DNA of 64,000 bases from Bdellovibrio bacteriovorus W (GTDB lineage: Bacteria; Bdellovibrionota; Bdellovibrionia; Bdellovibrionales; Bdellovibrionaceae): the NCBI GenBank assembly GCA_000525675.1, contig CP002190.1, forward strand, positions 2,294,001-2,358,000, read 5' to 3'. This document shows, one piece after another, positions 11,286-18,292 of the stretch; position 1 is the first letter of the stretch, and the number at the start of each line of letters is the position of its first letter. Under the pieces are notes generated by a model. It was not told the origin of the DNA. It saw only the letters and a list, made by a program, of their open reading frames with translations, and did no database searches. Made by a program: the position numbers and the translations under genes.

Positions 11286-11603
11286 CTAGATCGCTGAAAG
11301 TTTAATTTCAACATCAACACCAGCAGAGAGGTCGAGTTTCATGAGCTGATCGACAGTCTGTTGTGTAGGTTCTAAAATATCGAGCATACGCTTATGAGTT
11401 CTCACTTCGAATTGTTCACGAGATTTTTTGTCTACGTGAGGAGAACGCAATACCGTGTAGCGGTTGATACGAGTCGGCAAAGGGATCGGACCCGCAACTT
11501 TTGCGCCTGTACGACGAGCAGTCTCAACGATTTCTTTCGTCGACTGATCAAGCAATTTATGATCGAAAGCTTTCAATCTGATTCTAATCTTCTGACTTTG
11601 CAT
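11286..11603 (-). CDS. rpsJ: 30S ribosomal protein S10 (NusE)
   Basis: 105-residue S10 starting [19 protein letters not shown], first gene of this ribosomal operon. S10 acts in the small-subunit head and as NusE in antitermination with NusB. The conserved [22 protein letters not shown] segment is present in full. About 165 bases of leader separate it from the promoter at 11767-11795, so it is the head of its own transcription unit rather than a continuation of fusA. Confidence 0.97.
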
Positions 11604-11766
11604 AAGGACACTTCTCTTCTTTGATAAAGTAGCGTTGTTACTAGCAAATTTGTTAACATTTCAACGTTTTTATCCCATCGAAAACTTGCCCCGAATTAGC
11701 CCTTGCGGCCGTGAAATCACCCAATGCGGGGGGTTTTTTGTAGATTTTAAACGTCACGAGAGCGCG

Positions 11767-11795
11767 AGTATGCGCAACAAAAAAAACATTGTCAA
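11767..11795 (-). promoter_or_regulatory. sigma-70-type promoter of the S10-spc ribosomal operon
   Basis: On the minus strand a perfect TTGACA box (11790-11795) is followed after 17 bases by CATACT (11767-11772). A T-rich stretch lies between the boxes. It lies upstream of rpsJ and downstream of macB, leaving a leader of about 160 bases with short GC-rich hairpins (around 11700-11740) that could be a control site. The element is seen in the sequence. Its use is inferred. Confidence 0.7.
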
Positions 11796-11831
11796 ACGGA
11801 AAGTTTATATTTTCTGATGTTTATTTCAGAG

Positions 11832-11866
11832 GGAAAACGGTGCAAATTCGAATGCATAAAGCACCG
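11832..11866 (-). terminator. Possible terminator after macB
   Basis: Downstream of the macB stop, CGGTGC pairs with GCACCG across a 17-base loop and is followed by TTTT on the minus strand. The stem is short, so this is a weak candidate, but the position (just before the rpsJ promoter) is right. Confidence 0.4.
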
Positions 11867-11879
11867 CCCAAAAACTGAC

Positions 11880-13877
11880 TTATTCGTAGCGAAGCGCCTC
11901 AATAGGATTCATTTTAGAGGCCTTTTGAGCCGGAAACACCCCAAAAACAACCCCAATAAAGACTGAGAACCCAAAAGACACCAAAATAGACATCATTGAA
12001 ACTGACGTGCTCCACCCCAAAAGCTTGGAAATTAATACAGAGCTCGCGATTCCGACCAAAATCCCCGCCACCCCACCGACAACACTGATCACAACACTTT
12101 CGGATAGGAATTGAGACAAAATATCATGTTTTCTTGCCCCCACCGCTTTTCTTAACCCAATCTCCTTGGTTCTCTCAGTTACTGAAACCAGCATGATATT
12201 CATAATCCCAATTCCACCAACAATGAGCGAGATCGCCGCAATCGCTGACAAGAGCAGAGACATCGTCTGAGAAGACTGCATAATGGCGTCTTTAATCTCA
12301 GCCATATTCATTATATTAAAAGCCCCTTCTTGCTGAGAAAGTGGAATCTTTCTTAACTTGAACAACTCTTGCTCGAGCTGCTCCGTCACAGAGTCCATCT
12401 CATCCAATCGGTCGACCTGCACCTCGAGCATATCAATATAGTTCTTACCAAAGAGTCGATACATCCCCGTAGATACAGGAATAATAATCATATCGTCTTG
12501 ATCGCGAAATCCGCTGGCACCCTTGTAAGGCAAAACTCCGATTACCTGAAAGAGGACACGGTTAATTTTGATTGTCTCACCGACGGGATCTGCTTCACCA
12601 AAAAGCTCCTTCGTAACTGTCGCCCCCAGAACCGCTACACGCGCCCGGGTAGCCACCTCTTGCTCTGTGAAAAACCTCCCCATCACCGGAGAAGAGTTCT
12701 GCATCGCCGCCCATGAAGCCGACACCGCCTGCACATAGGTATTCCAGTTCTTTCCTGAGGCCGTAGCCTGCCCACGCCCAGCCACCTGCCCAGAGATATT
12801 TCTAACGCCCTCTAGATGCTTAGCCAGTAATTCTACGTCTTCGATTTGCAACCTATTCGCAGCCGAGGACTCTTGTGAACCCCCCCCGACTCTCTGCGCC
12901 CCTGGGCGCACAGTTAATAAATTAGATCCTAAATTTGCAAGCTGCTTTTCCATAGACTGCTGAGCGCCACGCCCCACAGCCAACATCGTCACCACAGCCA
13001 ACATCGTCACCACAGCCAACATCGTCACCACAGCCAACATCGTCACCACAGCCGCAACACCAATCAACACGCCCAACATCGAAAGAAAGGTGCGCCCCTT
13101 ATTCGCTAATAAGGTTTTTAGGCCTTGAACAAAATAGTCAGAAAAATCCCACAAAGAATTTTTAGTGTTTTCATGTTGAAACACCTCCGCCTCTCTAAGA
13201 GCCAGAGGCTTCAATCGCTCATCACTCTGAACAACACCGTCTCGCATGCGAATAAGGCGACTCGCCTGCTGCCCAATCTCTTCCTCATGAGTCACCATCA
13301 CAACCGTGATACCTTGAGCATGCAAGTCCTTCAGAGCTTGCATAATATCCTTCTCACTTTGTGAATCTAAATTTCCGGTGGGTTCGTCAGCAAAAATGAT
13401 CTTAGGTTTATTAATAAGGGATCGCGCAATTGCCACACGCTGCTGTTGCCCTCCGGAAAGCTCATTCGGTCGATGATCAAGTCGCGCCCCTAGGCCGATT
13501 TTCTCTAATAATTCTTTTCCGTAGCCGTAGTTGTCGTCCTTCTTACTATACAGCAAAGGCAACACAACATTCTCGTAAGCATTCAATCGCGGCAATAAGT
13601 TGAACTGCTGAAATACGAAACCAATGTGATCTCTGCGCACAATAGCTAACTGGTCTTCATCCATTCCAGATGTTTCAACATCACAAAACAAATAAGATCC
13701 ATCCGTTGGCACATCCAACATCCCTAAGATATTCATCAATGTGGATTTGCCAGAACCCGAAGGCCCCATAATTGCCACAAAATCACCGTCATTAATCGTT
13801 AGACTCACCCCTTTTAGAACTTCAAGAGTTGAATCTCCCATACGATAGCTTTTACGAATATCTGAAATAGAAATCAT
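11880..13877 (-). CDS. macB: MacB-type ABC transporter (ATPase-permease fusion)
   Basis: 665-residue protein with an N-terminal ATPase (Walker A GPSGSGKS near residue 39, signature LSGGQQQR, Walker [13 protein letters not shown]) fused to a MacB-type permease: first membrane helix near residue 262, large periplasmic domain, and three C-terminal helices with the FtsX-like segment. With MacA and a TolC channel, such proteins export peptides, lipoproteins or drugs from the periplasm, using ATP at the inner membrane. It overlaps macA by 4 bp. Odd feature: the first membrane helix is expanded by four in-frame copies of AVVTML (residues about 275-300) where relatives have one, making a hydrophobic run of about 36 residues. 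The substrate cannot be told from sequence. Confidence 0.9.
12976..13053 (-). repeat. 18-bp in-frame tandem repeat in macB, four units plus a partial
   Basis: The unit ACAGCCAACATCGTCACC (plus strand) occurs four times exactly at 12976, 12994, 13012 and 13030, with six bases of a fifth. Each unit encodes AVVTML on the minus strand. The copies are identical at DNA level, so the expansion is recent, and a change in copy number would keep the frame. Confidence 0.95.
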
Positions 13878-14815
13878 CGGCGACGCCCTCGTGGCTGTGG
13901 TCCAAATGGACTTGCGCCGCGACTCGAATCATCTTGCTTCTGTTTTTCTTCTACCAATATCGCGCCGGCAGCCAAACCATTGACCACTTCGGTGACTCGT
14001 CCATCACTTAAACCTAATTGCAATTCTCGCGTCTCTAAAGCCCCATCTTGAGCTTTCACGGTGACAACACTCTTGCCTTTGATGTTTTTAATAAATGAGT
14101 TGGGCACAGCCACAACATCTTTCTTTGACTCCACTAATACAGAAACGTTCGCCGTCATCCCGCTACGCATGAAATCAGGAGGATTCTCTGGCAGAACATA
14201 GGCCGTGTAGGTTGTTACATTGTTCGTGGTTTTTGCTTCGTAAGAAATGCGTGTGATTTTCGCCTGAATAACTTCATTCGCATACGCATCTAAACGCACC
14301 TCTGCTGACTGACCTGCGTGAATAGAGGCAAGGTCTGTCTCGTCAAAGACAGCTTCCACAGTCAGACGATCCGAGATCACTAGAACAGCGTCCGCAGTTG
14401 TGAAGCTCTGTCCTGACTCTACGTTGCGCAAAATAATCACACCTGAAATTGGCGCCATTATAGGCGTTGCTTTGTAAAGATCTTCCCAAATTTTTTGTTC
14501 ATCAGGTCCGCGCGCCCTTGCTGCATCAATCAGGGCAGCTCTTTCGCTCGAACTCATCCAAGCTAAAACTTGCCCTTTACGAACAGCCTGCCCTTCTTTA
14601 ACTAAGACCTCTTCAATACGCCCCGCCACTGGTGGCTTGATCTCCACACGGTTTTCTGGAGAAACCTTACCCGTTGTCAAGATCCGTAGATCTATATCTT
14701 GCTGGGAGACAATAACTTCGCGGTATTCTAACTTTTCCTTTTTGGGATAAAGCCAATAACCAAATCCAATAAGCAAAAGTACTAGTATAGAAATTATGAT
14801 TTTTTTATTTTTCAT
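13874..14815 (-). CDS. macA: Periplasmic adaptor protein, MacA/HlyD family
   Basis: About 313 residues: a single N-terminal membrane anchor (IIISILVLLLIGFGYWLYP), then lipoyl half-domains, beta-barrel and membrane-proximal domains of a membrane fusion protein bridging MacB and TolC. I choose the ATG at 14815 (MKNKKIIIS), which overlaps the tolC stop by 11 bp. A longer open frame upstream encodes no signal sequence. Odd feature: the segment between the two lipoyl halves, where MacA has a long alpha-helical hairpin of roughly 80 residues, is only about 25-30 residues here (SSERAALIDAARARGPDEQK region). The C-terminus is Arg/Gly-rich. Confidence 0.85.
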   Translation of the reverse strand: MKNKKIIISILVLLLIGFGYWLYPKKEKLEYREVIVSQQDIDLRILTTGKVSPENRVEIKPPVAGRIEEVLVKEGQAVRKGQVLAWMSSSERAALIDAARARGPDEQKIWEDLYKATPIMAPISGVIILRNVESGQSFTTADAVLVISDRLTVEAVFDETDLASIHAGQSAEVRLDAYANEVIQAKITRISYEAKTTNNVTTYTAYVLPENPPDFMRSGMTANVSVLVESKKDVVAVPNSFIKNIKGKSVVTVKAQDGALETRELQLGLSDGRVTEVVNGLAAGAILVEEKQKQDDSSRGASPFGPQPRGRRR

Positions 14816-16052
14816 CGAAAACACTTTCCCCAAGAGCTTTTTCCCAGCGCGACTCAACAACTACACTTTCTTTTTTTGCTTCTAAGTAAGCTCGCTCCCT
14901 TTGAATCAACTCATTTTCTACATTGTCCCAATCTTCAAAGCTCATAAGGCCATTATTGTATTTCCCACGAGAAATCATACCTCTCGTCGAAGCGGCCTCT
15001 TTGAAGTTTTCTGTGATTGCGACCTTTTGGTGAATGAGCTTATAGCTTGCAAACAAATCCCTTAGACTTACTAAGGCTGCGCGAAAAACACGGTCTCTTG
15101 CATATTCCCGTGTCACCTTCTGCGCCCCCGCGGATTTAACGCCGTAGTAGTCTCTTCCTCCATTGAATAATGGAATCGTCAAAGTTAAGCCGGCATTCCA
15201 TTGTTCATTTTCTTCTGGATAAAACTTCGTATCCATTTTTCCTGCTGATGATGAGAAATCTAAACTGGGTAAAAAACCCTCACGCAATGAAATATCATAA
15301 TCATATTTGGCAACTCTTAAATCCGCCTCTGCTTGCTGAACCAAAGGCATTTTTGAAGCTAGTTCTTCAAAGTGAGGCTCCGCTTTTGGCACTTCCACAG
15401 CGATATCACCCACAACATCCAGATCCACCTCTTGGGAGTACCCTAAAAGAGTCGCCAACTGCATTCTATACGTCTTCACTAAAAGCTCAGACTGAGAGAC
15501 ATTTAACTGCGCCTCTTCGTAGTAAGCTTTCGACAAAAGAACAGAGCCCTTATTTTCTCTTCCAGATTCATAGCGCAACTCCACTGTGCGCATATTTTCA
15601 CGACGGCGCTCGACAATTTGTCGATTAAGACTTACGAGAGACTTTGCATAGGAGAAATTTGAAAAAGACTCTTTCAATTGCGCACTCACATCTGCCAGTG
15701 TTTGACGTAACTGAAGCCTTGCAATGAGTGTTTGTTCTTTAGCTCGAGAAAGCCTACCAAGATCTGCAAAGCCAGCAAAAAGATTGTAGCGTAGATTTAA
15801 AGACGCTGAGATCGAATCCTTGGCTCCTGAACTATTTTGCTCAGATCTGTTACCTGAAGCGCTCGCCGACACCTGTGGCAAGAAAGGACTTACAGCTGCA
15901 TCTTCAGTAGCCTCGACGGCTCGAAGTCTTGCCATCTGCTCGAGCAGCTCAGCATTTTGCTCTTTCGCCTTGAGCACCACCTGCTGCCAGGTGAGAGTTT
16001 CTGCATGAGCTCTAAAACTTAAAAATAAGAGTATCAGAACAAACTTCTTCAT
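14805..16052 (-). CDS. tolC: TolC-family outer-membrane efflux protein
   Basis: About 415 residues with a signal peptide (KKFVLILLFLSFRAHA, cleavage before ETLTW) and two outer-membrane-efflux repeats rich in long amphipathic helices, as in TolC. It forms the trimeric exit duct for the MacAB pump encoded just downstream. Two in-frame methionines lie 9 and 24 bases upstream of the chosen start. MKKF gives the cleanest signal peptide. First gene of the tolC-macA-macB operon, after the fusA terminator. Shorter than E. coli TolC (about 470 mature residues). Confidence 0.85.
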   Translation of the reverse strand: MKKFVLILLFLSFRAHAETLTWQQVVLKAKEQNAELLEQMARLRAVEATEDAAVSPFLPQVSASASGNRSEQNSSGAKDSISASLNLRYNLFAGFADLGRLSRAKEQTLIARLQLRQTLADVSAQLKESFSNFSYAKSLVSLNRQIVERRRENMRTVELRYESGRENKGSVLLSKAYYEEAQLNVSQSELLVKTYRMQLATLLGYSQEVDLDVVGDIAVEVPKAEPHFEELASKMPLVQQAEADLRVAKYDYDISLREGFLPSLDFSSSAGKMDTKFYPEENEQWNAGLTLTIPLFNGGRDYYGVKSAGAQKVTREYARDRVFRAALVSLRDLFASYKLIHQKVAITENFKEAASTRGMISRGKYNNGLMSFEDWDNVENELIQRERAYLEAKKESVVVESRWEKALGESVFDEK

Positions 16053-16100
16053 AGCCCTCATTAAACCATGTCTCATTTTGAGTATGGAAATAATTTTCTG

Positions 16101-16129
16101 ATTATACAGAATTAAACATCCCTCGTTAG
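16101..16129 (-). promoter_or_regulatory. Possible promoter of the efflux operon
   Basis: A consensus TATAAT box (minus strand, 16101-16106) lies about 50 bases upstream of the tolC start, but the matching -35 region (CTAACG) is weak. It is after the fusA terminator, as expected if tolC-macA-macB is its own unit. Confidence 0.35.
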
Positions 16130-16171
16130 ACGTGGGACAAAGGCTTTTGGTTTGATTGAATCGGAATTTTT

Positions 16172-16203
16172 AAAAAGAAAATGGGCCTAGAAACGGCCCA
16201 TTT
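16172..16203 (-). terminator. Intrinsic terminator overlapping the fusA stop codon
   Basis: AAATGGGCC (inside fusA) pairs with GGCCCATTT just after it. The loop includes part of the TAG stop, and TCTTTTTAAAAA follows. A perfect 9-bp stem plus U-rich tail ends rpsL-rpsG-fusA transcription. Confidence 0.75.
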
Positions 16204-18292
16204 TTTGAAGAATCTCATTTTTAACTTTTGTAGGAACTGCCGCGTACTCGAGGAATTCCATACTGAAACTCGCTCTTCCTTGGCTCAAACTACGTACATT
16301 CGTTGCATATCCGAATAGGTTTGCCAGTGGAGCTTCAGAAGAAATCACTTGGCCGCCACCCACTTTGGCGTTCATCGTTAAGATCTTTCCACGACGAGCG
16401 TTCAAGTCGCCAACGATGTTCCCAACGAACTCATCTGGACAAGTTACTTCTAACTTAAACATTGGCTCTAGAAGATCAACAGGAGCACCTTTGACGGCCT
16501 CACGGAATGCCAACGACGCTGCCGCCTTGAATGACATTTCGCTAGAAGCCTCTGGACGAACTTCCACAGATTTCAAAGTTCCCTTAATACCAATCATTGA
16601 AGCACTTGAAAGAGGTCCTACTTCAGCAGCTTCTCTAAAGCCACTTTCGATAGCTTTTAAGAACGTTGCAGGGAACTCCTTAGTGATTGCTACCTTACTT
16701 TCAAACTGAATTCCTTCCGCTTGAGAGATTGGCTCAATCATTAATTCAACTTTTGCAAATTGCGCTTCTCCACCTAACTCACGTTCATAAATGAATGAAG
16801 CAGTAGCTGGAGCTGAAATTGATTCGCGATAAGAGACTTGTGGTTTACCCACGTTAGCTTGAACTTTATGTTCGCGCAAAAGGCGATCCACTAAGATATC
16901 CAAATGCAACTCACCCATACCAGAAAGTAATATCTGTCCAGTCTCAGGGTCTGTACGCAAACGGCACGATGGATCTTCTTTTTGAAGCTTATCTAAACCT
17001 TGGAACATTTTTTCTTGGTCCGCAGTTGATTTCGCCTCAATAGCCACAGAGATCACTGGCTCAGGGGATACAATCGATTCAAGAACAACAGGATGAGCTG
17101 TCTGACAAAGAGTGTCCCCAGTTCCTGTAAACTTCAATCCGACAACGGCGCCGATATCACCCGCCTTCAAAGAAGTAATTTCTTCTCTGGAGTTCGCGTG
17201 CATCTTTACAAGCTTTTGAATGCGCTCTTTTTTCTCAGTGCGTGGATTTAGTAATTGCTCACCAATCTTAACTTCACCTGAGTAAACACGGATGTAAGTC
17301 AGTGTTCCTGCAAACGGATCATTGGCAATTTTAAATGCCAATGCTGCTACTGGAACATCGAAATCAGTTTTACATTCGATTTTCTTTTCTGGATTTTCAG
17401 GGTCGATACCCACCATTGCAGGAAGATCTAAAGGAGACGGAAGATAATCAATGACTCCGTCTAGCAATGGTTGAATTCCTTTATTCTTAAACGCAGCTCC
17501 ACAGAAAACGGGAACAGCTTTCAACTCAAGTGTTCCTTTGCGTAGAGCAGTTTTTAACTCAGGGACCGTGATTTCTTCACCATTGAGATACTTCTCAAGC
17601 AAGACATCATCGAATTCAACGATCTTCTCAACGACTTCAGTACGGAAACGTTCAACGTCCGCTTTCATATCGTTGGGAACATCCATGGCTTCGAAGGAAT
17701 CACCCATTCCACCTTGACCCCAAACATAGGCGCGATTTTCTAATAAATCGACAACACCTTGAAAGGTGTCTTCCATTCCGATTGGAACTTGAACAGGAAT
17801 TGGGTTTGCATTGAGCTTGGTCTGAATTGTTCCATAAGACATGACAAAGTCGGCACCGACTCTGTCCATCTTATTAATAAAACAAATTCTTGGTACATTG
17901 TGTTTGTCAGCTTGTTTCCAAACAGTCTCAGACTGAGGTTCAACCCCATTTACACCGTCAAATACAGCGATTGCACCGTCTAATACGCGTAAAGAACGCT
18001 CAACTTCAATCGTGAAGTCAACGTGCCCCGGAGTATCGATGATATTGATTCGGTGATCGTGCCAAAAAGCCATCGTAGCAGCAGAAGAAATCGTGATTCC
18101 ACGCTCTTGCTCTTGGACCATGAAATCCATCGTGGCATCGCCATCGTGAACTTCACCAATTTTATGACTTTTTCCAGTGTAATAAAGGATGCGCTCAGTG
18201 GTTGTCGTTTTACCGGCATCAATGTGAGCCATGATGCCGATATTACGAGTATACTTGAGATCAGCTACAACTTTAGGATCTTTAGCTGACAT
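16187..18292 (-). CDS. fusA: Elongation factor G
   Basis: 701-residue translational GTPase that drives tRNA-mRNA translocation and, with RRF, ribosome recycling. The G motifs are intact: AHIDAGKTT (near residue 22), DTPGHVDF and NKMDR. Domains II-V follow and the C-terminus is LQKMGRF. Third gene of rpsL-rpsG-fusA, 9 bp after rpsG. tuf, which normally follows, is absent here and is found at 32285 in the tRNA operon. Normal length. Confidence 0.97.

Follow-up and report, generated by a model that had tools for sequence, protein, structure and literature searches.

Perfect in-frame tandem repeat in the first membrane helix of Bdellovibrio bacteriovorus W MacB, probably a recent slippage expansion

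The macB gene of Bdellovibrio bacteriovorus W carries four identical in-frame copies of an 18-bp unit in the first transmembrane helix (TM1) of its product. We regard it as likely that the array is a recent, lineage-specific expansion by slippage in a gene that otherwise appears to be in working order, and that it is probably neutral or mildly harmful. The array, the gene and its neighbors lie in a 64-kb stretch of the genome, referred to as the window, at the following positions.

11880-13877, minus strand: macB, 665 aa, with an N-terminal ABC ATPase, four TM helices, the MacB periplasmic core domain and an FtsX domain (Pfam, fold, phmmer)
12974-13053, minus strand: perfect 18-bp tandem array, 4.4 copies (TRF score 160, 100% match)
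12981-13052, minus strand: four in-frame AVVTML units (residues 276-299), one in relatives (reading frame, alignment)
13046-13053, minus strand: first GGCTGTGG, upstream edge in the coding sense, proposed slippage seed (sequence read directly)
12974-12981, minus strand: last GGCTGTGG, downstream edge in the coding sense, proposed slippage seed (sequence read directly)
13874-14860, minus strand: macA-like periplasmic adaptor, overlapping macB by 4 bp (Pfam HlyD_3, HlyD_D23 and Biotin_lipoyl_2; NCBIfam RND_mfp above cut-off)
14805-16076, minus strand: tolC-like outer membrane efflux protein (Pfam OEP, 2.8e-47)

TRF detected a single tandem array in the window, of period 18, spanning 80 bp without indels. 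In the coding sense it reads GCTGTGGTGACGATGTTG four times, followed by a partial fifth copy, and the four full copies encode AVVTML as codons 276-299 of the macB ORF. TRF and translation thus confirm what a sequence-only reading of the window had described, four identical AVVTML-coding copies in frame. That reading gave the position as 12976-13053, which is the right place, but the array starts 2 bp earlier and lies on the minus strand. We also applied TRF to 384 kb of the B. bacteriovorus W genome, made up of the window and sixteen 20-kb stretches. The runner-up array in this sample is imperfect (64% matches) and scores 74, compared with 160 for the macB array, which therefore does not belong to the background. 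Neither a second strong perfect array nor an enrichment for such arrays was found in the 384 kb.

Sequence and surroundings identify the window gene as a true MacB, encoded in a tolC-macA-macB operon. The ABC_tran, MacB_PCD and FtsX domains all score above the Pfam gathering cut-offs. Among solved structures the best phmmer relatives are 5lil (4e-126), 5gko and 5nik, and the window protein shares 37% identity with the solved MacB 5gko over a whole-chain alignment. The predicted structure matches 5gko_A with a Z score of 41.3 (617 aligned residues, rmsd 4.5; Z score of 43.7 for the protein of the sister genome G016), and by this model the window protein retains the MacB fold. The MacA-like adaptor and the TolC-like gene lie upstream of macB in its operon. 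The earlier placement of the repeat in MacB TM1 is supported. The score against NCBIfam NF007826, the equivalog model of the E. coli-type macrolide exporter MacB, is 494.6 bits, below the cut-off of 966, so that the protein should be called a MacB relative rather than the named equivalog. The window gene is the one full-length MacB found in the genome; other matches mostly cover the ATPase domain only.

In both the window genome and G016, tolC-macA-macB is placed between fusA and rpsJ within the str-S10 ribosomal gene cluster (window 11286-18292; L043 3259-10220), and the tuf gene is absent between fusA and rpsJ in the window genome. The operon is found at other sites in G005 and G025, near flagellar genes in the latter.

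The macB gene is intact, as is its operon, and both seem to be constrained. The Walker A, signature and H-loop residues of the window MacB are invariant with respect to its relatives. Between the window gene and that of G016, dN is 0.27, and the tree branch leading to the window gene is 0.40, compared with 0.32 for the sister. We considered gene decay and rejected it, as there are no stops or frameshifts, the ATPase motifs are intact and the branch is barely longer than that of the sister. The lack of other signs of decay fits a recent event. In the draft genome G003, the macB match (L020 218-2167) contains one TGA stop, which may reflect either an error in the draft or a defective gene.

When 29 MacB proteins are aligned, the 18 additional residues occur in the window protein only, and the other 28 have exactly one unit or its equivalent. 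This agrees with the earlier assumption that one unit is typical of MacB TM1. Another 23 genomes are grouped in the same genus, and the window species is represented by one genome. We further searched with spacing patterns running from the TM1 motif to the next conserved glycines. With CTN leucine codons, the pattern was found at the single-unit length of 62 bp at 51 places in 50 of the 369 phylum genomes, and no TM1 lengthened by 3 to 64 bp was detected in these 369 genomes. With TTR codons, the 141 genomes of the order gave eight places at single-unit length and one lengthened place, the window gene itself, whose recovery serves as a positive control. Since the patterns catch part of the MacB genes, the sample amounts to 59 single-unit places, and besides the window gene no lengthened TM1 was found among them. 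None of the relatives examined carries two or three units.

We looked for two occurrences of A-V-(V/I)-x-M-L in about 85,000 species, in a scan from which the record of the window itself is possibly missing; it returned three loci, none of them MacB. By eye, two resemble KefB-type antiporters with AVIPML repeats and one resembles an NrfD-type membrane subunit. Viral contigs searched for the same doubling gave zero matches. The doubled hexapeptide (AVIPMLAVIPML / AVIPMLAVVPML) of the two KefB-like antiporters sits in a membrane helix, in Parathalassolituus penaei (L040 3603-3637) and in a Polyangia MAG (L042 152-186). The DNA copies in the former differ by one base, which suggests that similar slippage may have happened there.

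With a single copy in every relative, the expansion is a novelty of this lineage, a finding compatible with stability as well as with instability inside the lineage. Synonymous sites are saturated between the window macB and its nearest relative (69% protein identity), and yet the four copies are identical; the expansion is therefore young on this scale or has been kept homogeneous by repeated slippage. Reduced to a single unit, the sequence would be GC-GGCTGTGG-TGACGATGTT-GGCTGTGG-GG, with an 8-bp direct repeat at an offset of exactly 18 bp; this uses the flanks as they are now, and they may have been altered since the first duplication. In 42 single-unit relatives, the longest match at an 18-bp offset is at most 6 bp (median 3). 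The residues AVG follow the unit in the window gene and G016 only, with ALG or AIG in other close MacB relatives, and this makes the two ends of the site more alike. That slippage between such repeats adds and removes units in frame is well established, as shown for mutL (PMC2955026), and slippage as the source of the macB repeat, as proposed earlier, is plausible given an 8-bp direct repeat with the matching 18-bp spacing. We infer the following route to four units. An 8-bp direct repeat would have arisen by chance where AVV...AVG is coded twice with similar codons, and would have allowed one 18-bp duplication by replication slippage. The two perfect copies could then have promoted further slippage to four, each step adding six residues and keeping the frame.

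The uncharged stretch of TM1 is 40 residues long in the window MacB, 18 more than the 22 in relatives; a hydrophobic run of about 36 residues had been estimated before, correct as to the lengthening but short of the actual length. In the AlphaFold model of the sister protein, TM1 and the stalk form one continuous helix (residues 262-298). The corresponding helix of the window MacB is split (260-286 and 304-314), and pLDDT falls under 50 at 283-315, although low confidence is expected there anyway, since the insert has no counterpart rows in the alignment. TM2 forms a helix of 44 residues in either model (525-568 and 509-552), with no matching lengthening. TMH1 and TMH2 of each MacB monomer build a four-helix stalk that carries the ATPase motion to the periplasmic domain, and MacB function is severely cut when the stalk helices are locked together (PMC5985334). 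Because TM2 is not lengthened, a TM1 that was longer but still straight would leave the two stalk ends about 27 Å out of step (18 residues × 1.5 Å, by arithmetic), so that a bulge or loop is the likelier outcome. On the models, the added turns are most likely accommodated as a bulge or loop where the TM1-stalk helix passes from the membrane to the periplasm, and this would weaken, or at least alter, the coupling between the ATPase and the periplasmic domain. An extra membrane crossing appears unlikely, as an even number of spans ahead of the periplasmic domain would put that domain on the wrong side.

Taken together, the evidence suggests that recent slippage ranks first, ahead of a selected switch, an artefact and an adaptive structural change. 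The sequence-only reading had raised the possibility of a switch that alters helix length or pump activity, besides a misassembly or a recent neutral change. For a switch to hold, copy number would have to change fast, and TM1 lengths would have to differ in pump activity and be under selection. The array does have the form of a contingency switch, with perfect identical repeats in the coding region and a unit length divisible by three; reaching four copies takes at least two slippage events or a single larger one; and in mutL, function is turned off when one of the three 6-bp units is lost (PMC2955026). Of the marks of a contingency locus, TRF finds the identical short tandem repeats, within the gene. 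In alignment and pattern searches none of the relatives examined retains the array at this locus, and the 384 kb sampled are not rich in such arrays. The switch is thus unsupported, and we consider it unlikely. It is very unlikely that an unstable in-frame repeat here tunes TM1 of a mechanotransmission ABC transporter in length by six-residue steps, giving rise to cell subpopulations with differently coupled pumps and an intact frame. The four-unit allele is most likely unstable in copy number without being a dedicated switch.

Just as unlikely as a selected switch is an error of sequencing or assembly, in which the true macB would have one unit or another number. The expansion is unique to one assembly and tandem repeats are a classic source of assembly trouble, but an 80-bp array is shorter than a typical short read, the genome is a single contig of 99.96% completeness, and three spurious 18-base additions of perfect identity and in frame would be an unusual type of error. 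A selected structural change, by which a longer TM1 suits another membrane thickness, partner or substrate, is somewhat less probable still. It could draw on the intact and apparently constrained gene and operon, and on the fact that 18 residues correspond to five full α-helix turns, so that register would be kept. Against it, TM2 has no matching extension, the model breaks the TM1 helix instead of extending it, the scan of 85,000 species gave no convergent case for the motif, and the perfect DNA identity points to youth rather than to long selection.

Three known systems come closest. The window protein shares domain order, motifs and whole-chain fold with MacB of MacAB-TolC (Type VII ABC; 5gko, 5nik/5nil, 5lil/5lj6/5lj7), and its operon likewise has an adaptor and a TolC-like protein, but its TM1 has 18 additional hydrophobic residues where the two solved MacBs aligned have a gap. 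The mutL alleles of Salmonella and E. coli (PMC2955026) are similar in that identical units change copy number in frame by slipped-strand mispairing in a functional gene. They differ in having a 6-bp unit in a repair ATPase and in that allele conversion was shown, as opposed to an 18-bp unit in a membrane helix. In KPC β-lactamases (PMC12593533), short tandem repeats likewise mediate changes in a gene linked to resistance, and a selected phenotype is reported there. No direct precedent of a transporter helix containing an in-frame repeat came up in the open-access literature searched. Events of this kind are already known, and macB offers an experiment of nature in a helix of mechanical importance.

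A natural MacB with 18 extra residues in one of its two stalk helices offers a test of how much change in geometry the stalk tolerates. If the four-unit MacB works, the coupling model must allow a large bulge, and if it fails, the pump would be one impaired in nature and captured shortly after slippage. If copy number varied between cells, the array would act as a graded, frame-preserving switch of an efflux pump.
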